The notes under the pieces: model-generated
What the model was told of the DNA's origin: nothing
The model's input: only the letters and a program-made list of their open reading frames with translations
Database searches by the model: none
Program-made: the position numbers and the translations under genes
Shown here: positions 13,521-27,845 of the stretch, piece by piece
How the letters are laid out: each line of letters begins with the position of its first letter
Numbering within the stretch: the stretch's first letter is position 1
Source of the DNA: Bacteroidota bacterium
Lineage (GTDB): Bacteria > Bacteroidota > Ignavibacteria > Kapaibacteriales > UBA961
Length of the DNA: 36,322 nt
NCBI GenBank assembly: GCA_005788035.1
Contig: SXZI01000051.1
Coordinates: 1-36,322 of the forward strand
Reading direction: 5' to 3'

Positions 13521-16500
13521 TCAGCGATTGATGGTAAAGGGCTTTACTTCCGTGAATGGGCCTGCCATGATTCTACAGAAATAATTGCCATTTGGCAATG
13601 CATCACTTGGAATGGCAAGGCGATATTCACCTGGTTCCAATATTTCATCAACTGCCAATGAGACGCGCTCACCAAGAGAATTATAGACTTCAACTGTGGT
13701 GGCTACTTTGAAACCAATGCTATAATCAATGGTAATATTTCCTGATTGCAATGGATTCGGTGAAACTCCTTTCAATGAAAATGCAGTGCTACCAAATGAA
13801 ATGAGTCGACCATTGATGAAACATGCATCCAATGAAACTGTTCCCGGCTTTGTTTTAATTGGTGTACAAAGCGAACGATCTTTGGTTGTTGCATCAGTGA
13901 TATCAATCATATATGTTGATGAATCACTCATCAAAATCTTGAAATCTCCAATGATGAAATCACCATTATTTGGATTAGTGGATCCTGTTGCTTTGATTGA
14001 AAGACCATCGGTGGACTCAGTAGCAGTGATAGTCCAATTTGGAAGGCCCGGCCCTGCTTTGATCGAACCTGTTTCATAAGCCATCATGTCTGAATCATAG
14101 TGAAGCTTCATATCAATGGATCGCACCTGTGTTACAGGCCATTTTGATTGATCCTGTGTACTGCCTTTCACAGCAATGGTCTTCACTGTTCCTGCTTTGA
14201 TTTTGTCCATTGCACTCGGTGATACTTCGAGCAAAATCTCAACAGAGAATCCAAATCCGTCCAATTCAATGAAATCAGTACGGATATTACCTTGTGCATC
14301 TTTGAGATTTGTTGGAGTGACAAGTACTTGTGCCTTATAGGGTCTTTGTGCATCCGGCGAGAAAGTCACGCCAACGATATATGAATCACCCGGCTTAATA
14401 GTAATCGGATATGTTTGTGGATCCAATGTGAATGAACCAGCATCTGCACCGATCAATTGCATATCTCCAATGATCAAATCATCAGTTCCCGGATTTGTGA
14501 TGGTGGATGTCAATCGCTTGTCATCGCAGAAAATCACATTTCCATAAGAAATAGGTGTAACTTTGATGTCAGGATAACGCGTTTCAATACCTGTACCAAT
14601 CACATCCACATTTGTGATGATTCTTGGTTCTTCGATTGTTCTCGTTCCCGGGGCAGCATCATTGTTGATGTCAACAGCTGTTATTCTTTGACCAATATCA
14701 GTTGGTTTGAATTTTACGGGGATTACCAATTCTCCACTAATCGGGATAGAAACATTTGATGGCAATGTTGCGGGAGAATCCCATTCAAAATCGGAGGCAT
14801 TTGGTCCGCTTGCACTAAAGTCCATGGACTCAATAAACAATGGAGCACTTGTGCTTGTATTCTTGATAATCACTACGCCATTGTTTGCAGAATAACTTCC
14901 AACCAAAACCGGGTTTTGGAATATATATCCTGTTGCTTGAATTTTAGGTAGAAAGCCATATCCTTTTAATGTTCCTATTGCTGAACCGGCATTATTTGCG
15001 CTTGCAGTGATTGTTGTTGTATGATCAAATTCACTTGTTGGTTCATATTCAATCTGGATAGTGACTTTATCTCCATTATTTCTTAAGACGAATGGCGCAG
15101 CATCACTTACAGGGGGATTGACATTGATGATTCTAAAATTAGTGTTTGCGGGTGTTGCAAGTTCAACTTTAGTCACATTTGCTGGAGCAGATCCTGAATT
15201 CGTCACATAGACTTCCTTCATCAATACTGTTCCCTGACGACGTTTGCCCCAGTCTTGATCAGTAATAATCAATCCAGGTTGAATGCCTGTACCATACCAT
15301 GTAGAATTTGGCGAACAATCATCACCATAAGAATCCGACTCGAATACGGCGATGATCGTATCTGATTTCTCTTGAGTCGGGTTGAAACAGATTGAATTGA
15401 AAAATACATTCGCCTTCGGTGCAATCTTGAATGGGAATGCAGGATTTGAAGGTGATGATACGGTGAATGGCAGGCTCACACCTTTGATGCCTGTGACTGT
15501 GAGTGTATCAGTACCTGTATTTGAAATTTTCAAACCAACAGAAGCATTGTCATCCTTGCATATTTTTTGATTTATGGGTACTCTACCCGCATTCCATTGC
15601 GGTTCAACTGCAATGCAAGGTCGAACGCCTTGACCTTTCAATGGCCATTTGAATTCAGCACATTCGGTTTTTGCCATCAATGAATCAATGTCGAATGTTT
15701 TTTCATCCGGCATTTCTCTAATCGGAGTGTAAGCTATCTTCACATCACGACTTTCACCGGCTTTTAAAGGTGTGGTATCAGCGCTTATGAGCTTGAACTC
15801 TTTGCCAAATCTTGTTTTGATTTCTTTGAGCTTTATCTCATTTGTGCTTTCATTTTTTAGTTGAACCGTCATTTCTTTGGTTGTACCCAGACGGACGCGA
15901 CCGAATTCGACAGGATCCGGATTCAGTGCAAGTTTATCGACTGTATAACGCACACTGTCGATCGTATAATTGCCGGCGCGATCCATCACGACAAAAATCG
16001 CGAATGCATCTTTTGTTTTGTCAAGCACTTTGAATTTGAATTGGAATTCTTTCACTTTTGGGTCAACCACGATTCGATCAGCAGTGATGAATTCCAAAGC
16101 ATAATTCGTTGAAACGGAGTCGATCATTTCTATGGTTGAGATACCTTGATCAATTTGTGCTGTGTCCGGTGGCGGACCGAATGAACGCACTTCTGTTGCT
16201 GTATACGTGAAGTCACCACAATCTTCTTCGAATGTGAGAACGGGTGGCAATGTATCTATTTCGTCAAGTTTTCTGATGGCCATTGCTGCTGGCCAGCCAT
16301 AGGAGTCGAAGGAACTGAAACCATAGATATACCCACCGAATCTAGTCTGACTTGTTACTTTGTGAGGGCCGGGTGCAACATTTATATTCTGCCAAAAGAG
16401 ATTGGTTCCAGGGATGCGATTTGACAAAAATGTGGGTTGTCGAATCCAAATAGGCTTGCCATCCAATGTTACTGACTTGAGTTTTTTCTGTTCTGCATCG

Positions 16501-17786
16501 GTTGAATCTCCCTCTGCAACAACATTGAACCAATTAGTACTAAACGCACTGTTTGCAGGAGATTGAAAAACCGTTGCTTGAATATATTGCTCTTGGGGTG
16601 TAACGATGATCATGAATGGATCGAATTCATCACCTAAATCCCAATTGGCGGAGTAGGAATATTGCATGACCAAAATTGGTTTATCGGCTTCCCAAACTGA
16701 AGTACCACGGAAACCTTCAACCAATCCACGACCTACATATTGATTGAAATCCTCAAAAAATTCACCGGCATTCAAAATTCCCTCACGTTGACCAAGCAAG
16801 TCGCCACTTACTTTATCATAGTATTTCATTTTCCAGCGTGTTTGATTCTGAGAGGCAATAACACGGAAAAAATCACCTTTATTGTCTCGTTTATATTCTA
16901 CTGTTGCATACCGTTTCCCCCATGCCTGTACAGGAGGGAGCATTTCAACAATATGATCTCGCCCATTTACATTTGTAGCAGGTATCATGCATCGTTCTTG
17001 ATAAGAAACCAATCCAATGGGTTTGTTGGATGTAATCTTTGAGCCTGACATGTCAAAGACGCCACGCGTTGATGCTTCACCTTTCACATTGAAGATTTGT
17101 CCTTTCATCAATGTTGCTTTAATGGTCTTTCCAAGGCGATTTCCTTTTACTGTTTTAGCACCTGCATTAGCTGCACCCCTACCTCGTAGGAGGATGGAGA
17201 TTTCAGTTTCATCCTCTGAGGCAACAACAGTGAAACCTGTAGCCCATCTGCGAACTTCATTGAAGTCATAATAACTGAGGTGAATATATTCCGTTCCCCA
17301 AACACTTGTGGGTAATGCAAGGAATCCTTCTGAAGTCACCGGCTTTGCATTCAATACATACACGGAAATTGGAGCATCTGCAAAAACATGCACGGCAATG
17401 TCATCAGGCACTTCACTAGAAGTTACTTCCCATGCAGTGGAAACGGAACCGTCTCTCGTGCTGAATGTCACAACATCCAAAGCACGTAATGCTTTCTTGC
17501 GACTAAAGCCCTGACCCGGAACTTCAAGTGTAACGACGGTATTTGTGGAGCCTGTCACATATATTTCAATGGCATTTAACGGTGCTTGAGCATTATCATT
17601 CATTGGGATAGCAAACCAAAAATCTTTCCCTTGAGCTGAATTATTCAAGACAGCTTCTGGTGCGGGAAATTTCTTCGCCACTTCTGGAAAATTTTGTCTG
17701 TGTGATTGCGCTTGCAATCCAATTACATTCATTGCAATGGCAAGCAAACAGACGAGAATTCGTACACCACTGTTCATTCTCATCAC
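13521..17786 (-). CDS. Large secreted multidomain protein: IgGFc-binding-like N-terminus, ASH/choice-of-anchor-D-like repeats, cohesin-like module, T9SS type A C-terminal sorting domain
   Basis: Signal peptide; GKDFWFAIPMND...VTLEVPGQGFS...VYVLNAKP (IgGFc-binding-like); about five repeats of the type V.FG.V.LG....V.L.N.....L; C-terminus LKGVSPNPLQSGNITIDYSIG...VEVYNSLGERV...LPNGNYFCRIMAGPFTEVKPFTINR is a T9SS sorting domain. Confidence 0.88.
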   Translation of the reverse strand: MMRMNSGVRILVCLLAIAMNVIGLQAQSHRQNFPEVAKKFPAPEAVLNNSAQGKDFWFAIPMNDNAQAPLNAIEIYVTGSTNTVVTLEVPGQGFSRKKALRALDVVTFSTRDGSVSTAWEVTSSEVPDDIAVHVFADAPISVYVLNAKPVTSEGFLALPTSVWGTEYIHLSYYDFNEVRRWATGFTVVASEDETEISILLRGRGAANAGAKTVKGNRLGKTIKATLMKGQIFNVKGEASTRGVFDMSGSKITSNKPIGLVSYQERCMIPATNVNGRDHIVEMLPPVQAWGKRYATVEYKRDNKGDFFRVIASQNQTRWKMKYYDKVSGDLLGQREGILNAGEFFEDFNQYVGRGLVEGFRGTSVWEADKPILVMQYSYSANWDLGDEFDPFMIIVTPQEQYIQATVFQSPANSAFSTNWFNVVAEGDSTDAEQKKLKSVTLDGKPIWIRQPTFLSNRIPGTNLFWQNINVAPGPHKVTSQTRFGGYIYGFSSFDSYGWPAAMAIRKLDEIDTLPPVLTFEEDCGDFTYTATEVRSFGPPPDTAQIDQGISTIEMIDSVSTNYALEFITADRIVVDPKVKEFQFKFKVLDKTKDAFAIFVVMDRAGNYTIDSVRYTVDKLALNPDPVEFGRVRLGTTKEMTVQLKNESTNEIKLKEIKTRFGKEFKLISADTTPLKAGESRDVKIAYTPIREMPDEKTFDIDSLMAKTECAEFKWPLKGQGVRPCIAVEPQWNAGRVPINQKICKDDNASVGLKISNTGTDTLTVTGIKGVSLPFTVSSPSNPAFPFKIAPKANVFFNSICFNPTQEKSDTIIAVFESDSYGDDCSPNSTWYGTGIQPGLIITDQDWGKRRQGTVLMKEVYVTNSGSAPANVTKVELATPANTNFRIINVNPPVSDAAPFVLRNNGDKVTIQIEYEPTSEFDHTTTITASANNAGSAIGTLKGYGFLPKIQATGYIFQNPVLVGSYSANNGVVIIKNTSTSAPLFIESMDFSASGPNASDFEWDSPATLPSNVSIPISGELVIPVKFKPTDIGQRITAVDINNDAAPGTRTIEEPRIITNVDVIGTGIETRYPDIKVTPISYGNVIFCDDKRLTSTITNPGTDDLIIGDMQLIGADAGSFTLDPQTYPITIKPGDSYIVGVTFSPDAQRPYKAQVLVTPTNLKDAQGNIRTDFIELDGFGFSVEILLEVSPSAMDKIKAGTVKTIAVKGSTQDQSKWPVTQVRSIDMKLHYDSDMMAYETGSIKAGPGLPNWTITATESTDGLSIKATGSTNPNNGDFIIGDFKILMSDSSTYMIDITDATTKDRSLCTPIKTKPGTVSLDACFINGRLISFGSTAFSLKGVSPNPLQSGNITIDYSIGFKVATTVEVYNSLGERVSLAVDEILEPGEYRLAIPSDALPNGNYFCRIMAGPFTEVKPFTINR

Positions 17787-18761: not shown

Positions 18762-19550
18762 ATGGTCAACATTTCAATGATTGGATTCTTATTATTGTCG
18801 GGGTTCTTTGACTACACTGAAAGTCATGAACAAAAACCACACAAATATACCACCAAAAACAAGTCAGAGAGTAGTCTCTTTGATAGTCTGATGAAACAAT
18901 GCTTCAAAAACAATGTCCTCCGCTGCGACTCATGCGATACCGTATCGCTCAGGCGATATTTGGAAGAATCATCAGCTCGCATTGAAAATGGTGGGCGCAA
19001 TCAACAAGCAAGACTTTGCTCTTTGATGAATGTCTATCATGCTTGGTTGATACTAAGATTATGTGCATCCAATGGCTTGCAAAGAATCTCGAATGATTCG
19101 ATGTTCTTGTACAATGATACATTGATGATTGACAGATCAAGATTCACTCTTGCAACTTTACGAGCAAGCATACTTGAGATGGCTCAAAAAGAACAATTGC
19201 AGATTTGGTGTTCTTTATGGGATGGAACTGTTTCCGGGGCTTCGCACCCAAAGAAGGAATTTCATCCCCAAACATATTCATCTACAATCAAATCAAAAGC
19301 AAAATCGTATTTCAAATCTACACATGATGAATATGTATTGGATAGATCTAAAGGAATATTAAGCTTATCGGAATCATTGCTGCGTGAATTGTCACTCATC
19401 AAGGGATCTAGCATGCGTGAGACACCTTATATCCTGGAATTGATACTTCCTTACATTCCCGAAATGGACGCAGCATATTGCCTTGTGAATAAACACATGC
19501 TTCGTGTGAGAAGCATGATAGTTTCTGACAGAATACAAATGGTTCAATGA
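18762..19550 (+). CDS. Hypothetical protein (orphan), possible N-terminal signal/TM segment
   Basis: Only long ORF between panC and the recombinase; start either 18738 or 18762 (MVNISMIGFLLLSGFF). No recognised family. Confidence 0.55.
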   Translation: MVNISMIGFLLLSGFFDYTESHEQKPHKYTTKNKSESSLFDSLMKQCFKNNVLRCDSCDTVSLRRYLEESSARIENGGRNQQARLCSLMNVYHAWLILRLCASNGLQRISNDSMFLYNDTLMIDRSRFTLATLRASILEMAQKEQLQIWCSLWDGTVSGASHPKKEFHPQTYSSTIKSKAKSYFKSTHDEYVLDRSKGILSLSESLLRELSLIKGSSMRETPYILELILPYIPEMDAAYCLVNKHMLRVRSMIVSDRIQMVQ

Positions 19551-20506
19551 ACGAATTCCAGCATATGTAATGCTTGATGCAATCCTGCTTCGTGTGCTTG
19601 ATGGGTTAAATTCAGATACCGCTGTGCTATGGAAGGTGAAACTATGCGCATTCTTTGCATGATTTCTTCAAGGTCTTGTCCTGCCAATGCCATGATGCAA
19701 CCGGCGGTATGGCGCAAAGAATATGGCGACAGTACCTTTTGTCGATCAGGTGATATACCGGATTTTTTCATTCGCTTTTGAAAAGCATCACGTAATCCAC
19801 GAACGCTCATCCTGCAGCCTAATGAGCGATTACTCAAACTGTGAAAAAGTGGGGCATCTTGGATCATGACTTCAGGGAATCGCTCGTGCAAATAGCTCGA
19901 TAAAGCTTCGCTTGCAAAATGAGGAAGTTTCACCTCGCATTGTTTTTCACTGATTGCCTCTGGTAGCTTGATCACCGAGTTCATGGATAGCGTTTGAGTA
20001 TCGGCAATCGTCAAGCTCAACAATTCCTGTTCTTTCAACATAGATCCGAGCATGAATGAAAACAATGCTTTATCACGCAATCCATGCATACTTTGCATAT
20101 CCATTGTATCAAACAACATTAACAATTCATGAAAATTGAAAAATGATGGAATTGTTGAGATGGGATTTTTTTGTGCATGAACATGCTTCGCTGGATTTCG
20201 TGGAAGAACTTTCACTTCCACCAGATATTGCGAAAATCTTCTCAATGATGTAAGATATGTCGAAATGGAAGGAGATTGCAATTTCTTGGTTTCAATCAGA
20301 TGAGATTTATACCGTTCAAAATCCTTGATACGAAATTTGAATTTTCTGTCCTGGATCACAAATGACAAAAAACATCGCAATGAACGTGAATATGTATCTG
20401 CTGTATGGGGTGATGCTGATTTACGAATATGGGATTCAAATACTGAAATATGCTCAGCGAGAACGGCATTTCTAAGTGTGACGGGTTGATACATGTCATT
20501 GATCAT
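19544..20506 (-). CDS. Tyrosine recombinase/phage integrase family protein (Xer-like, degenerate catalytic site)
   Basis: SAM-like core-binding N-terminus (HTADTYSRSLRCFLSFV) and C-terminal SPYSLRHTAGCIMAL...IAQRYLNLTHQ; several catalytic positions substituted. Confidence 0.8.
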   Translation of the reverse strand: MINDMYQPVTLRNAVLAEHISVFESHIRKSASPHTADTYSRSLRCFLSFVIQDRKFKFRIKDFERYKSHLIETKKLQSPSISTYLTSLRRFSQYLVEVKVLPRNPAKHVHAQKNPISTIPSFFNFHELLMLFDTMDMQSMHGLRDKALFSFMLGSMLKEQELLSLTIADTQTLSMNSVIKLPEAISEKQCEVKLPHFASEALSSYLHERFPEVMIQDAPLFHSLSNRSLGCRMSVRGLRDAFQKRMKKSGISPDRQKVLSPYSLRHTAGCIMALAGQDLEEIMQRMRIVSPSIAQRYLNLTHQAHEAGLHQALHMLEFVH

Positions 20507-20525: not shown

Positions 20526-21845
20526 CTATTTGCCAATGATGATCACTTCTGTTCGACGATTCAATCGTCTGCCAAATTCGGTTGCATTGCTTGCGATGGG
20601 CTTTGTATCTCCAAAACCGGCAGACTCCAATCGCTTTGGGTCTATGCCTTTCTTTATGAGATATTGTCGCACCGCTTCTGCACGGAACATAGAGAGTTTG
20701 CGATTCAGAGACTTGCTTCCTCTTGAGTCAGTATGACCTTCAATGCGAACAGACACTTTAGTCCTATTCAGAAGAAATTCACGCAATATTTCCAATTCAT
20801 AGACCGAATCCGGAAGAGTTGAACTATTTGTTTGAAAGAGTAGATTCTCAATAATGAGTTTTCTTCCCAATTCAACAATTGGAATGATTTTCTTGACAAT
20901 CTCTCTTTTCTGCTCATCGATAATACCAACACTCAATGAATCAGGGATAGCTGTTTTATCTGAACGATATGTGATCGCAAATAGATTTGTAAGCTGCGTG
21001 GAATAATCATCAAGAATCGTTGCAAAAGGAGTAGAGATGTCAAACATGGAACCACGTGTACCCTCGGTCAATGTTCGATAGTCTTGCAATACGGGAGGAA
21101 CAATCGTGAATAATCTAATGGAATTATCTTTTAATGTTTGAATAATTGATTCCGTTGTTTGCAATGTTCTACCCTGTCCTCGCTCGCCCTTCTGATGATA
21201 TGGTGCATCTGTAATAATGATTGCTACTTTGTTCGCGGCTGGTCTGAATTTCATTTTCGACATGTCGGACAATGCTTCGAGAGCATTTTCTTTATCATCT
21301 CCGCCACCTGTTGCCCATACACCTGTGAGCCATTTACCGAAATCTTTTACATTGTCTGTGGGATTATAAACTTTTTCTACTACATCAGAAAAAAGAACAA
21401 GTCCTACGCGATAATCAATGCCTTTTGCGGAAACATTCCCAACAAACTTTTCTATATTATTTCTGATTGCATTGATATATGTACCCATTGTGGCTGTAAC
21501 ATCAAGCACGAAAACGAAGTCAATAGGAATATTTTCTTTGAATGAAATCTTCTCAATTGAAATAACTTTCTTTGTGACCCCATTTTCAACCACTGAAAAT
21601 TCTTTTGGATTCAATGTATCCAATGCGGTACCATTTGCTTTTACCGCTTCAACAATCAATTTCACTTCAGGGAATTTCGTGATGTCTATGTTTTGAATAG
21701 CCATCCGAATATTACCTTCACCCATTTTCAAGCGTGCTGACTCTGCCGCTTGTTTTGCTTGCGCTTTGACAGAATCTGTTTGGGCATGCAAACATGTTGC
21801 AGAAATAAACAGGAAGATTGTAAGAATGGTGGCGAAGAGATTCAT
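20526..21845 (-). CDS. Exported von Willebrand factor A domain protein with C-terminal OmpA-like peptidoglycan-binding domain
   Basis: Signal peptide MNLFATILTIFLFISATCLHAQ; vWA FVFVLDVTATMGTYINAIRNNIEKF; OmpA-like NLLFQTNSSTLPDSVYEL...IEGHTDSRGSKSLNRKLSMFRAEAVRQYLIKKGID...GFGDTKPIASN...GRRLNRRTEV. Start at 21845 preferred over 21878. Confidence 0.9.
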   Translation of the reverse strand: MNLFATILTIFLFISATCLHAQTDSVKAQAKQAAESARLKMGEGNIRMAIQNIDITKFPEVKLIVEAVKANGTALDTLNPKEFSVVENGVTKKVISIEKISFKENIPIDFVFVLDVTATMGTYINAIRNNIEKFVGNVSAKGIDYRVGLVLFSDVVEKVYNPTDNVKDFGKWLTGVWATGGGDDKENALEALSDMSKMKFRPAANKVAIIITDAPYHQKGERGQGRTLQTTESIIQTLKDNSIRLFTIVPPVLQDYRTLTEGTRGSMFDISTPFATILDDYSTQLTNLFAITYRSDKTAIPDSLSVGIIDEQKREIVKKIIPIVELGRKLIIENLLFQTNSSTLPDSVYELEILREFLLNRTKVSVRIEGHTDSRGSKSLNRKLSMFRAEAVRQYLIKKGIDPKRLESAGFGDTKPIASNATEFGRRLNRRTEVIIIGK

Positions 21846-21867
21846 AATCGTGGTCTTACAAAAGAAA

Positions 21868-21898
21868 CCCCCTGACAAGATAACACCTGCACAGGGGG
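21868..21898 (-). terminator. Terminator-like hairpin between the barrel-protein gene and the vWA-OmpA gene
   Basis: CCCCCTG (21868-21874) / CAGGGGG (21892-21898) stem followed on the minus strand by TTTCTTTTGT. Confidence 0.55.
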
Positions 21899-21920
21899 AA
21901 CACTGTTCTGAGTATGCACC

Positions 21921-23318
21921 TTAAATATTAAGGCGCAATACTGGTGAAATCATAAATACGGACTGATCAAATGGTCTTGATTCGCTACGCAATGGAATTG
22001 AATAACGAGCATCCAAATACAACCATTCTCCGAGCAATGGAAGATAGAGTCTTCCTAGAAATATCTGATTTGAATATTGTGCACTCAATCCAAATGGGAA
22101 TGTTGATTGATTACGATATTCAACTTTGGCATAGAGCCAATCCAAAAATTCTGTTGGATGGAAGAATGTCAAACCATCGACTTTATCATTCAATGCAAAT
22201 GGACCTGTGTCATTCCCAAGACGATTCAAGGCAACTTCACGAACTTCAGTATAATTTATACCCAAGTCAAAGCGCACATAGTTTTCAGGATTCTCAGGAT
22301 CGAGCCACCAGTTATAGAACAATCCGGTATTGCCAGTAATTCTCAACAAAGGTGCAACTACCAATGGATCGCGTGGACTTGCAGGATTGTTTTTGAAATA
22401 AGCTGCATATGTGGCACGCTCAACGGTTTTGAGTGTGTCTATGCCTTGTAATGGTACCTCAACATGAAATGTGATACCAAAGTTTGGTTCGAATGGTGCA
22501 TGAAAATCAAAACCAAAGATTCCTTTTCCGCCATATGCTGCATTCATTCTACGTTGCGGCAAGAAATTAAGCATGCCGTTTGACGTATCCTGCATACGAT
22601 ATCCCATACCGATATGAAAATGCAATAAGTTTGGAATGGCCTTGCGTGTTGCAATATCTTCATTGACATACAAAGGATGTTGAACCATCACTTTTGCTTC
22701 ACCGGAAGAGATAAAAGGTAATCCTGCACCTTCGGTACCAATCACGGAACGAATCCAATATCCATCTTCTTTACCGATTTTAAGTGTCTGCTCAAAAGCG
22801 GACAATGAATATGAATGGGTTGTATTCGTTGGCATTTCAAGATAATTTGTAATTGCTTCAATCTGCGCTTGTGATGGAGCAGATGCAACCGGAACATCTT
22901 GATAGCAATATGGTCTCTTTGGACTAATCAACGTTGACACAAGTGTTTTCAACTTGGAATCAACTTGATCCGCTGTCATCTTTTCTTTTCCGCATTCAAT
23001 CAAAAGAATATTATAATCAGGATTCTTTGGATCTTTAATCGGAGCTGATGTTATGAGAATTGTTCTCATATCCAGATTTTCTGCGGGCCTACCGTCCAAC
23101 TTGAATACCTGGAAAATCTGCAATTGCAAATTCGGCTCGCAAACACTCCAACGGGGAAAATAGGGCAATAAGCCGGGATCTACGGACTTCAAACTTGCCA
23201 ATGCAAGCGAATCACTAGTCTGGGCTTGTGCGGTCATAACTCCAAATCCGCTCATCGAAATGATGCATAGGAGGAAGAAATGCAAGTAGCGTTGTTTTAT
23301 CATGGTTTTCATCACCAT
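21921..23318 (-). CDS. Hypothetical outer-membrane beta-barrel protein
   Basis: Signal peptide (RYLHFFLLCIISMSGFGVMTAQAQ), amphipathic beta pattern in the C-terminal half (WLYLDARYSIPLRSE...VFMISPVLRLNI). Confidence 0.6.
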   Translation of the reverse strand: MVMKTMIKQRYLHFFLLCIISMSGFGVMTAQAQTSDSLALASLKSVDPGLLPYFPRWSVCEPNLQLQIFQVFKLDGRPAENLDMRTILITSAPIKDPKNPDYNILLIECGKEKMTADQVDSKLKTLVSTLISPKRPYCYQDVPVASAPSQAQIEAITNYLEMPTNTTHSYSLSAFEQTLKIGKEDGYWIRSVIGTEGAGLPFISSGEAKVMVQHPLYVNEDIATRKAIPNLLHFHIGMGYRMQDTSNGMLNFLPQRRMNAAYGGKGIFGFDFHAPFEPNFGITFHVEVPLQGIDTLKTVERATYAAYFKNNPASPRDPLVVAPLLRITGNTGLFYNWWLDPENPENYVRFDLGINYTEVREVALNRLGNDTGPFALNDKVDGLTFFHPTEFLDWLYAKVEYRNQSTFPFGLSAQYSNQIFLGRLYLPLLGEWLYLDARYSIPLRSESRPFDQSVFMISPVLRLNI

Positions 23319-23380
23319 TTATATCAAGTAATGTTCAAATCAAATGTTATCGACACTATGCCGACGCATTTCTTGCTGAA

Positions 23381-25174
23381 TTAGAAATTAAACAGCATTT
23401 GTAATGATGGAAGAACGATTGTTTGTTCTTCCCATGGTTTTGGATCGCGAAGAGCAGTCTGGAAATATTGTGCTTGGAAACGTAAATCAAATCCATTCAC
23501 AACAGGAACTTGTGCCCATACATCACCTGAAACGCAACCATCAAAAAACTGCATGGAAGCACCCCAAGGCACTGTGCGAGATCTATTCATAAATTCAATA
23601 CGACCTGAAAGACCAGCAACTACTTCTGAACCTTTTAGTCCACTCATCGCTGCAACTTTCAATTGATCAAAACGATTGAGAATTGCCAAATCTTCATAGG
23701 AATATTGATCCACTTGACGATTCTTCTTTTCGTAAACCGGACGACCATTATTGTCATTGCCATTTTGTTGTTCCAATTCAGCATAACGTTGAATGACATA
23801 CATCGTTGCTCCAAGTTTGAATCGGAAGAATGCTGTTCTGTCAATATCAACTGCAAATGAATAATGCGCTTGGGCATGGAAGCGCGGCAAATAACTCAAA
23901 TCAAGATTTCTGTATGAAGCCGAGTCAGATGTTCCACTTGTATTTCGACCTGCAAACATGAACTGTGTCGCAATCGGATTGACTGCTGCGGGACCAAATA
24001 CATAGCTTCCATTAAAATTGAACACACCACCTTGATTAAGAAGCTTAATTGGGAAATCAAGTGACCCATAAATACCAAGTCCGGCATTTGTCAATTTACG
24101 TTGTGCACTGAATACATCTGTAGCCAATGAAGACCAACCATTTGTTGGAAGAACAATTCCAAATTTGTTTGATTGCCACATGACATTGAGCGTCATGCGT
24201 TCACTCCACAATGATGGATAATTGATCTCGGGCATTCCATAGCGAAGCTCAACTCCATATAATGGAAGATGCTTATTATACACTCGCTTTACTGTAGAAT
24301 CGCCTTCACCTTCTTCAGGAATGAGATTTCCCTCTTCATCAAATTCTTCGAGTTTCCCATAATGACGGAAACGAATCAAATCGAATAATCCAATAGTCAA
24401 TTCATTGGGCGCATTATATTCTTGTGGTTGTCCATCGGTGATACGCAGATATTGCTGTATATCATCTTCATTGATTGGATATGTTGTACCATATTTCTGA
24501 GGGAGAAATGTAGCATCTGCTCCAATTCCTTGAGCTTCAGCAGTGATGTTTTCAGCATCATTCTGAAGAATTTTTCTCTCAAGATATTCATAGAGCGTTT
24601 TTGCAATTCCAAGTGTATCCGGAGAACTCACTTTTTGCAAATCATTCGCCAAGAAAATACCCTTTGGAGGATCAATGATTTCATCAATCTTAGCAACCAT
24701 CTCTTTATTGCCAGATGTAAGCAATCCGATGATTTCAAATGGTTCGCCAACTCTGAATCGAGTTGTTACAACATAAGCACGGCTAAAGAGCTCATCTTGC
24801 CATTTTGTATAGAGACGATAGTATTTTTCATATTCTCTATCATCATTGTTCATGTTGCCACCACCATTGTTCTTCAAGAAGAGTGCAACATCTGCCTCAC
24901 CTTCATCAATGGCTTCTTGAATAGCATCCTTTTTCTTGGATCTATTGGCAGCAGCATTAGCTTTTGGCTCAGGTACGCCCAATAAGGGATTGATTGCTGT
25001 TACGGTTGGATCATCAACCTGAAACAGGAATACATTAGAGTATCTATAACTCTTGAATTTTCCGAGGATTGATCGGATCTGTGCAGTTTGTTGCGCTTGC
25101 ATTTGCACTGCAGCAAAGACCATCAGGCAAAGCATGGGAAGTACTGCCATTGGTCGAACAAATCTTGAACTCAT
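23381..25174 (-). CDS. Hypothetical outer-membrane beta-barrel protein with periplasmic N-terminal region
   Basis: Signal peptide (MAVLPMLCLMVFAAVQMQAQ); C-terminal barrel-like strands and terminal Phe (FDLRFQAQYFQTALRD...VLPSLQMLFNF). Confidence 0.6.
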   Translation of the reverse strand: MSSRFVRPMAVLPMLCLMVFAAVQMQAQQTAQIRSILGKFKSYRYSNVFLFQVDDPTVTAINPLLGVPEPKANAAANRSKKKDAIQEAIDEGEADVALFLKNNGGGNMNNDDREYEKYYRLYTKWQDELFSRAYVVTTRFRVGEPFEIIGLLTSGNKEMVAKIDEIIDPPKGIFLANDLQKVSSPDTLGIAKTLYEYLERKILQNDAENITAEAQGIGADATFLPQKYGTTYPINEDDIQQYLRITDGQPQEYNAPNELTIGLFDLIRFRHYGKLEEFDEEGNLIPEEGEGDSTVKRVYNKHLPLYGVELRYGMPEINYPSLWSERMTLNVMWQSNKFGIVLPTNGWSSLATDVFSAQRKLTNAGLGIYGSLDFPIKLLNQGGVFNFNGSYVFGPAAVNPIATQFMFAGRNTSGTSDSASYRNLDLSYLPRFHAQAHYSFAVDIDRTAFFRFKLGATMYVIQRYAELEQQNGNDNNGRPVYEKKNRQVDQYSYEDLAILNRFDQLKVAAMSGLKGSEVVAGLSGRIEFMNRSRTVPWGASMQFFDGCVSGDVWAQVPVVNGFDLRFQAQYFQTALRDPKPWEEQTIVLPSLQMLFNF

Positions 25175-25218
25175 TATCTGCTTTCTCCGGGATTACGTGG
25201 GGGATAGCATGAAAAAAA

Positions 25219-27417
25219 TTAAAATACGATGTTAAACTTGCAAGACTTGGATGCTTCAGGAGATGTTTCTCCACTTGGCAATTGTGCAGCAGCCTTGGCT
25301 TGTATCTTGATAGAACCTCCGGTTCCGCGTGGTATTGGAAGCTTTCCATCGAGTCTGTAACTCTGGGTCCACTTTCCACTAGTAAGCTTTGGCTCACCAA
25401 CTGGTACCACTTTGTAACCTTTGATGTTCTGTTCCTTCACTTCAAACTTGACACCTTTGATAGTTGCAGTGATGTCGGCATAAGTTGGCGCCTTGATTTC
25501 GACATTCACGAAGAATATCGGAGTCTTAGCATCCGTGATGCGCGATGCATCTCCACAAACAACACGTGGGCGCTTCGGACCTGGTTGCGCTTCAACTGCA
25601 CTTGAGCCATCTGTTGGGAATATCTGAACTTGAATTGACTGATCTTTTGGATCTTGCCAAACAATGCGAACACTAACGCGATCAGCATCAATCGGAATAT
25701 TATATCCATCATTTGCTCCAACTTGCAAGCCAACGACCGGTGATTTCTTGGTCGTACCATCAATGATGGTTCTAAATTGGCTACCCGGAATCGTGCTTCC
25801 TGAAGTTGGAACGGCAGTGAATTCAACTGCATCACCCTTGGACAATGACTTGACCAATCCGGTGATTTCTTCTTCATTTTTCACATCATCGCCTTCTTCA
25901 GTTTTGACTGTTGCCAAACCGGTTGCGAAGATTTTCAAATTCATTTCTTCAACGACTGTCTTCCCTGCTGATGACAATGAAGCAGTCATTTTATATTCAC
26001 CTGGTGATAAATCACGGTTGATTTCAACTTTATAGCGACCAGCTTTTCCATTCGTGCTCGTAGGTCCAACTTTGGTTATGCTCACTCCTGATGTTGAACC
26101 ATTGAATTGAATGGATGGAGTTGCTTTATCATAAAGGTTAGCTACGAATGTTGCAACGTATTTTCCGGCTTTGTCGAATGAATACAATTGACCATTGTCA
26201 TCCCAAGTGATAATTGGATCTTCTTGCTCAATCTCTGGTTGCTGAACAAAAATGTCAATCTCAATGCTACCCTTATTTTGGTCAAATGTGGTATATCTAC
26301 CCGGTGATAGAAGCTTCGCGATATAGCCGAATAAATCGATCCGGCTGGTATTTTGAGCAACTTTATCACCTCCACCATCAATGACTTTCTTCTTAGCGGC
26401 TTCCAATTGATCATTGAACTTGTCGAGATCCAATGAACCATTTGCAAAAGCATCTGCTGAAGGAATACCTGTTCCTGATAATTGATCTGATAATTGGCGC
26501 TGAACGCTTCTCAAATCCTTTACCTTCAATTGAACAGTACCAATATTTACTTTTTGATCATCTTTCAATGAATTGAATTTCTGTTCAGCAGAAATACCCA
26601 TGATACGATTCGTCTGTGAACTGAAACGCAATTTATACCAACCCGGTTTGCTCGGTGGTTGGAAATTGCAGACAAAAGCTCGTTTTGTCAATTTTCCATT
26701 GTTCGATTGACGTAGTCTATCTGTTTTCTCTACTGAATAACCAAATATGCGATTCACTCTCGCAGAATCAGGTGGAGCAAATTGAGCAATATCACCTGTT
26801 TTCACTGATGACTCACCATATGATGGCTCTTTGAAATCCTTCATGGATTTTGTGCTCAATTCCAATTTGCGAGTTGCCTGCAATTCCCAAGTTTCTGTTG
26901 AGGTTGCATTCGGCGGATTCGCAAGTCTCATCCCCGATTGTGGAGATGATTGAACTTTCTTGAATTCAGAGGCCGGAGGTGAAGGAGGAACATCCACTTC
27001 TTTACTTGGATGAAAATACACCTCATACTGCAATTCCTGAACATTCGCGAGTTTTTTGAGTGTCTCTATTTTTTCTTTTTTCTGAGCATCATCCATTCCA
27101 TCCATATTCAATGCTGATGCAACGTCTGTAACACCAACTTCGATATAATATGTACGAAACTTTTTGAAATACTTTCTTTGCTCTTCTGGGAGTTTTTCTG
27201 ACAAAACAATGGCATCCTGAGGTCTCGTATTGATACCTTCGGTTCCAGCACCTGACTGCAACTGCGTCAGAATACTCTCAACGATGCGCATTGATTCCTG
27301 CTGCTTTTTTACTAGATGCTCCTCAGCTTCATCGCGTTCAACGATGATGATGAGAAGTTCCAGAATAACTGCAAGATAGAGAACGAAATAAACCTTTCCG
27401 GCTCCGCCTTTTGACAT
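25219..27417 (-). CDS. Single-TM anchored large periplasmic protein, GldM/PorM-like architecture
   Basis: MSKGGAGKVYFVLYLAVILELLIIIVERDEAEEH: short basic N-terminus, one TM helix, acidic periplasmic side, then helical region and several beta-rich Ig-like domains; C-terminal Cys pair. Similarity to GldM is by layout only. Confidence 0.55.
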   Translation of the reverse strand: MSKGGAGKVYFVLYLAVILELLIIIVERDEAEEHLVKKQQESMRIVESILTQLQSGAGTEGINTRPQDAIVLSEKLPEEQRKYFKKFRTYYIEVGVTDVASALNMDGMDDAQKKEKIETLKKLANVQELQYEVYFHPSKEVDVPPSPPASEFKKVQSSPQSGMRLANPPNATSTETWELQATRKLELSTKSMKDFKEPSYGESSVKTGDIAQFAPPDSARVNRIFGYSVEKTDRLRQSNNGKLTKRAFVCNFQPPSKPGWYKLRFSSQTNRIMGISAEQKFNSLKDDQKVNIGTVQLKVKDLRSVQRQLSDQLSGTGIPSADAFANGSLDLDKFNDQLEAAKKKVIDGGGDKVAQNTSRIDLFGYIAKLLSPGRYTTFDQNKGSIEIDIFVQQPEIEQEDPIITWDDNGQLYSFDKAGKYVATFVANLYDKATPSIQFNGSTSGVSITKVGPTSTNGKAGRYKVEINRDLSPGEYKMTASLSSAGKTVVEEMNLKIFATGLATVKTEEGDDVKNEEEITGLVKSLSKGDAVEFTAVPTSGSTIPGSQFRTIIDGTTKKSPVVGLQVGANDGYNIPIDADRVSVRIVWQDPKDQSIQVQIFPTDGSSAVEAQPGPKRPRVVCGDASRITDAKTPIFFVNVEIKAPTYADITATIKGVKFEVKEQNIKGYKVVPVGEPKLTSGKWTQSYRLDGKLPIPRGTGGSIKIQAKAAAQLPSGETSPEASKSCKFNIVF

Positions 27418-27611: not shown

Positions 27612-27845
27612 TTAGTTTTTAGGTGCTACTTCTTTCTTTGTATTGTCAGCAGAAGTTTTTGAGCAATTGTCGCCCTTCGCTTCTTTTGAACTCATCTTCT
27701 TTTTGCAGCAAGCCATACCATCTTCTTTGGAGGCTTCTTTTGCACATTCTGCCTTTGATTTTGTACCGCAATCAGCAGTCATAATTACAGGCGCTGCGAT
27801 GAACGCACTCAATACAAATGCCATGATCATATTTTTGGCTCTCAT
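27612..27845 (-). CDS. Small exported Cys/Lys-rich protein
   Basis: 77 aa; signal peptide MRAKNMIMAFVLSAFIAAPVIMTA then DCGTKSKAECAKEASKEDGMACCKKKMSSKEAKGDNC. Confidence 0.65.
   Translation of the reverse strand: MRAKNMIMAFVLSAFIAAPVIMTADCGTKSKAECAKEASKEDGMACCKKKMSSKEAKGDNCSKTSADNTKKEVAPKN

Follow-up and report, generated by a model that had tools for sequence, protein, structure and literature searches.

Four consecutive open reading frames lie on the minus strand at positions 20526-27417 of the window, i.e. the whole 36,322-nucleotide stretch of DNA that was analysed, and the window's list of open reading frames gives them in the order M-B1-B2-V. These genes, together with a small gene upstream of them, are as follows.

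27612 to 27845, minus strand: small secreted Cys-rich protein (77 aa), on the same strand as M and 194 nt upstream of it.
25219 to 27417, minus strand: M, 732 aa, predicted to be anchored in the inner membrane (IM), with one transmembrane (TM) helix followed by a coil and, in the periplasm, by beta-rich and Ig-like domains.
23381 to 25174, minus strand: B1, 597 aa, secreted, with an N-terminal periplasmic domain and a C-terminal barrel region ending in LFNF; paralogous to B2.
21921 to 23318, minus strand: B2, 465 aa, secreted, with an alpha/beta N-terminal domain (residues ~48-181) and an outer-membrane (OM) beta-barrel.
20526 to 21845, minus strand: V, secreted, with a vWA domain and a C-terminal OmpA domain of the peptidoglycan-binding type.

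V was listed as 20526-21878 (450 aa from a TTG codon); the internal ATG at 21845, where the signal peptide begins, is its likely start. The intergenic gaps measure 44, 62 and, with this correction, about 75 nt, and hydropathy places exactly one N-terminal hydrophobic segment in each of the four proteins. Coordinates, gaps and N-terminal segments all bear out the preliminary description of four neighbouring, tightly spaced envelope genes. In most genomes of the order, M is preceded by small Cys-rich open reading frames similar to the one listed above, which is an uncertain member of the module. Directly downstream of the cluster lies a tyrosine-recombinase gene (19544-20506); the nearest relatives have it too (41-87% identity), but in G204 it is not next to the module.

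The arrangement M-B1-B2-V, on a single strand, is intact in 20 of the 22 genomes fetched from the window's order and family f12; the two exceptions are G105, where V is not adjacent, and G136, where a contig ends. Such a shared same-strand order shows that the cluster is not a chance one, and since the identities of its proteins fall to 24-40% across these genomes, the arrangement has been maintained over a long divergence. Neighbourhood conservation in relatives, which the preliminary description had proposed as a check, is thus established. M itself was found in 33 of the 297 genomes of the phylum that were searched, among them all listed members of the window's order. A plasmid search matched nothing. 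The window's genome also carries truncated paralogues of M and B1 side by side on another contig (G000:C134, L034:6780-9067): a lipoprotein-like protein that matches M over residues 398-732 (51%), and a neighbour matching the N-terminal region of B1 (34%).

Only V, among the four proteins, has a convincing Pfam or NCBIfam match. Its two domains, vWA (1e-11) and OmpA (9e-19), are solid in Pfam, which confirms the earlier assignment as a vWA-OmpA protein. V shares with OmpA-family vWA proteins the vWA domain, the C-terminal OmpA domain and the signal peptide, but differs from them in that it comes after M-B1-B2 in nearly all genomes of the window's order. It adjoins the barrel genes only in that order and in family f12.

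The two barrels that had been predicted from the sequence are upheld by different routes. The structural model of B2 (pLDDT 79) has the N-terminal domain followed by about eleven strands, and nearly all of its Foldseek matches are OM barrels, with weak E-values; together with the signal peptide, the model thus identifies B2 as a predicted OM beta-barrel. B1 has the C-terminal barrel half in common with B2 (hhalign E 1.9e-14), and this profile paralogy makes it a predicted OM barrel as well.

The preliminary description called M GldM-like, and this holds for the overall layout of one TM helix, a coil and tandem beta domains, but not for sequence or fold. The TM helix (residues ~9-27), within the near-invariant GKVYFxLYLAVxLELLIIxxERDxAE, is the best-conserved stretch of M. 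In the model (pLDDT 83.8), a long N-terminal helix leads into a beta-rich region, which contains a helical insert, and then into Ig-like domains. The best 50 of its 119 significant Foldseek matches are generic Ig-like proteins only, with neither GldM nor PorM among them. M has no match to TIGR03517 or PF12080, and its comparison with GldM N-terminal profiles is not significant (hhalign E 0.022, probability 2%). Family, profile and fold searches thus lend no support to M as a true GldM.

A possible partner of M is encoded outside the window. This family, termed L, has a GldL-like two-helix hairpin with an invariant Glu. The window's genome has three L genes, on contigs C119 (463 aa), C187 (353 aa) and C9 (~270 aa), and none on the window's contig. 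The earlier statement that no GldL homologue lies nearby is thus correct for this contig but incomplete, as GldL-like genes are present on three others and L adjoins M in other families. The C9 gene (L3) adjoins a second M-type gene, M3; the L3-M3 pair (G000:C9, L123:7210-9676) has no barrel genes beside it in the window's genome, and is present also in G043, G204, G059 and G128.

In the Ignavibacteria families f8, f9 and f13, L immediately precedes M, in the gene order L-M-(secreted C)-B1-B2. The B1 and B2 of f8 and f13 match those of the window (E 3.5e-7 and 4.7e-9, respectively) and stand in identical order. In these two families, a short protein of ~205 aa begins with the counterpart of residues 1 to 35-55 of M; it is preceded by a two-helix L of 174-228 aa and followed by the secreted protein and B1-B2. 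The idea that the secreted protein of f8 is the detached C-terminal half of M was dropped, as profiles gave it no support. One f9 genome (G055) has three copies of the L-M-barrel operon (L192-L194). Within the window's own order, G276 and G284 each have an extra M copy that is immediately preceded by L. Searched with an L-hairpin profile, all tested genomes of the order have two or three L genes and those of f12 and f14 have one or two, while 22 of the 49 class genomes in the L search have none. A profile of the M N-terminus matches all five L-positive and none of the eight L-negative genomes, so that L and M agree in 13 of 13 genomes tested.

All 21 L hairpins contain YxGAA, Gly-x-Arg and a single, invariant Glu in the middle of the second helix. 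By hydropathy, L1 and L2 of the order and the L proteins of f14 and of one f9 genome have four predicted helices; L3 and the L proteins of f8, f13 and the remaining f9 genomes have two. For comparison, canonical GldL sequences were collected from the genes that precede GldM in Bacteroidia. The L hairpin aligns with them at hhalign E 2.7e-4 (probability 41%), placing GldL E49 on the invariant Glu; E49 is strictly conserved in GldL and essential for GldLM (PMC8986121). This score is matched by 1 of 300 shuffles that preserve helix composition, and a reversed profile scores far lower. The match is weaker with full-length four-helix L (E 0.048) or with L from f8 and f13 only (E 0.012), yet both alignments still put the second helix of GldL on the helix that bears the Glu. 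The GldL family TIGR03513 has no match over cut-off in 15 genomes, where it gives scattered weak matches only. Homology of L to GldL is thus suggestive and marginal, and does not prove family membership. Neither L nor GldL gives a match to the MotA/ExbB profile, and the assignment of L to MotA/ExbB was rejected. A search of the PDB with L and M profiles returned only chance or low-complexity-type matches.

Taken together, L-M-B1-B2 is best read as a class-specific, mostly unannotated module encoding a GldLM-like driven envelope machine, to which the vWA-OmpA protein has been added in the window's order. We give an even chance to the specific proposal that the cluster supplies the axle and the OM end of an ion-driven, GldLM-like trans-envelope machine with its own barrels, particular to the class. 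The TM hairpins of L proteins, encoded elsewhere and each with one essential Glu, would assemble into a ring around two M helices, and the pair would be driven by protons. The periplasmic stalk of M may then pass movement to the N-terminal domains of B1 and B2, the putative driven parts, and the vWA-OmpA protein would serve, in the window's order, as the link between the outer end and the peptidoglycan. The client process would most likely be the movement or export of a surface protein. This proposal builds on what is observed of the gene set and its conservation, the barrel character of B2, the adjacency and co-occurrence of L and M and the invariant Glu; it is weakened by the marginal homology to GldL, the non-significant M-GldM comparison, the generic Ig-like folds and the absence of linkage between L and the window's M. 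The lineage-specific trans-envelope apparatus suggested earlier draws support from the conserved unit, the barrel evidence and the GldL-like partner elsewhere in the genome.

Compared with GldLM/PorLM of Bacteroidia, L shares a hairpin of two predicted helices, the second of which bears an invariant Glu, M is likewise a single-TM partner with tandem beta periplasmic domains, and L and M are adjacent in several families. However, M is not significantly similar to GldM and has no sign of its helical first periplasmic domain, no GldN was found, the module having two barrels and the vWA-OmpA protein instead, and many L proteins have two extra N-terminal hydrophobic segments. With the 5:2 motors MotAB, ExbBD and TolQR the pair shares the plan of a multi-TM ring protein and a single-TM axle, and the four-segment forms of L have a MotA-like hydropathy layout; these motors differ in that no profile match is found and that the conserved acidic residue lies in the ring protein L rather than in the axle. 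We tentatively propose, as a possibility that is more doubtful than probable, that L-M is a separate branch of GldLM-type motors, some with the four-helix MotA layout and others with the two-helix GldL layout, bridging MotAB/ExbBD and GldLM in evolution and driving its own barrel-based OM machine.

Among the alternatives, it is fairly unlikely that type IX secretion (T9SS) in the order is powered by the module, or by the separate L3-M3 pair, in place of canonical GldL and GldM. All 41 distinct class genomes that were tested have SprA, the window's genome has 68 sorting-domain matches, and L and M are universal in the order. Furthermore, canonical GldM exceeds the cut-off in 48 of 198 genomes of the phylum and in none of the class, canonical GldL does so in none of 15 genomes and GldN in none of 15 class genomes; the only weak GldN match, in G116, is a substrate-binding-like protein. 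However, all 22 L-negative genomes (of the 49) carry SprA, so type IX secretion is independent of L there and the module cannot serve as its general motor across the class; they also lack canonical GldM. Three module copies in one genome (G055) speak against the same reading, as does the absence of SprA beside any module copy examined. The GldL, GldM and GldN components of the type IX core do not track SprA as a set, given the lack of GldN over cut-off and the genomes with SprA and no L. In the window's order, the module or L3-M3 might still act as the type IX motor. The divergent T9SS/gliding sub-module of the preliminary description is not shown, as M lacks detectable GldM homology, SprA is not beside the module copies examined and SprA occurs without L. 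The cargo invoked in its support, a 1421-aa protein (13521-17786) that combines IgGFc-binding and Ig-like domains with a weak sorting tail of the type IX kind, is one of the 68 in the genome and hence uninformative about a link between module and T9SS.

A passive envelope scaffold, in which M and the vWA-OmpA protein join the inner membrane, the wall and two porin-like barrels and there is no motor, is unlikely. In its favour, barrels and an OmpA domain of the peptidoglycan-binding type are typical features of structural links, the window's genome has M and L at separate loci, and the sequence of M resembles no known motor stalk; against it, conservation in M is highest in the TM helix, M occurs together with a TM protein that bears an invariant buried Glu, and L adjoins M in three families as well as at two extra copies in the order. 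A TolQR/ExbBD-like energiser for OM maintenance or uptake would fit an IM motor-like pair with OM barrels and an OmpA-type protein, but is highly improbable given that L has no MotA/ExbB match, that the genome already has a separate, genuine ExbB-type protein, and that the acidic residue conserved across the family is in L and not in M, whereas in MotB and ExbD it sits in the axle protein.

The module is absent from the literature on T9SS in Ignavibacteria and Kapabacteria covered by our search, which left aside preprints and most subscription papers; the T9SS motor papers found deal with Bacteroidetes models. The class keeps the SprA translocon and many cargo proteins without a recognisable GldM, which exposes a gap on the motor side of its type IX secretion. 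How GldLM relates to MotAB/ExbBD has been described as unresolved (PMC9389320, PMC12505986), and if our reading of the cluster as part of a GldLM-like driven machine is true, L and M would be candidate intermediates between them, and a large bacterial class would carry an unannotated, motor-like envelope machine.
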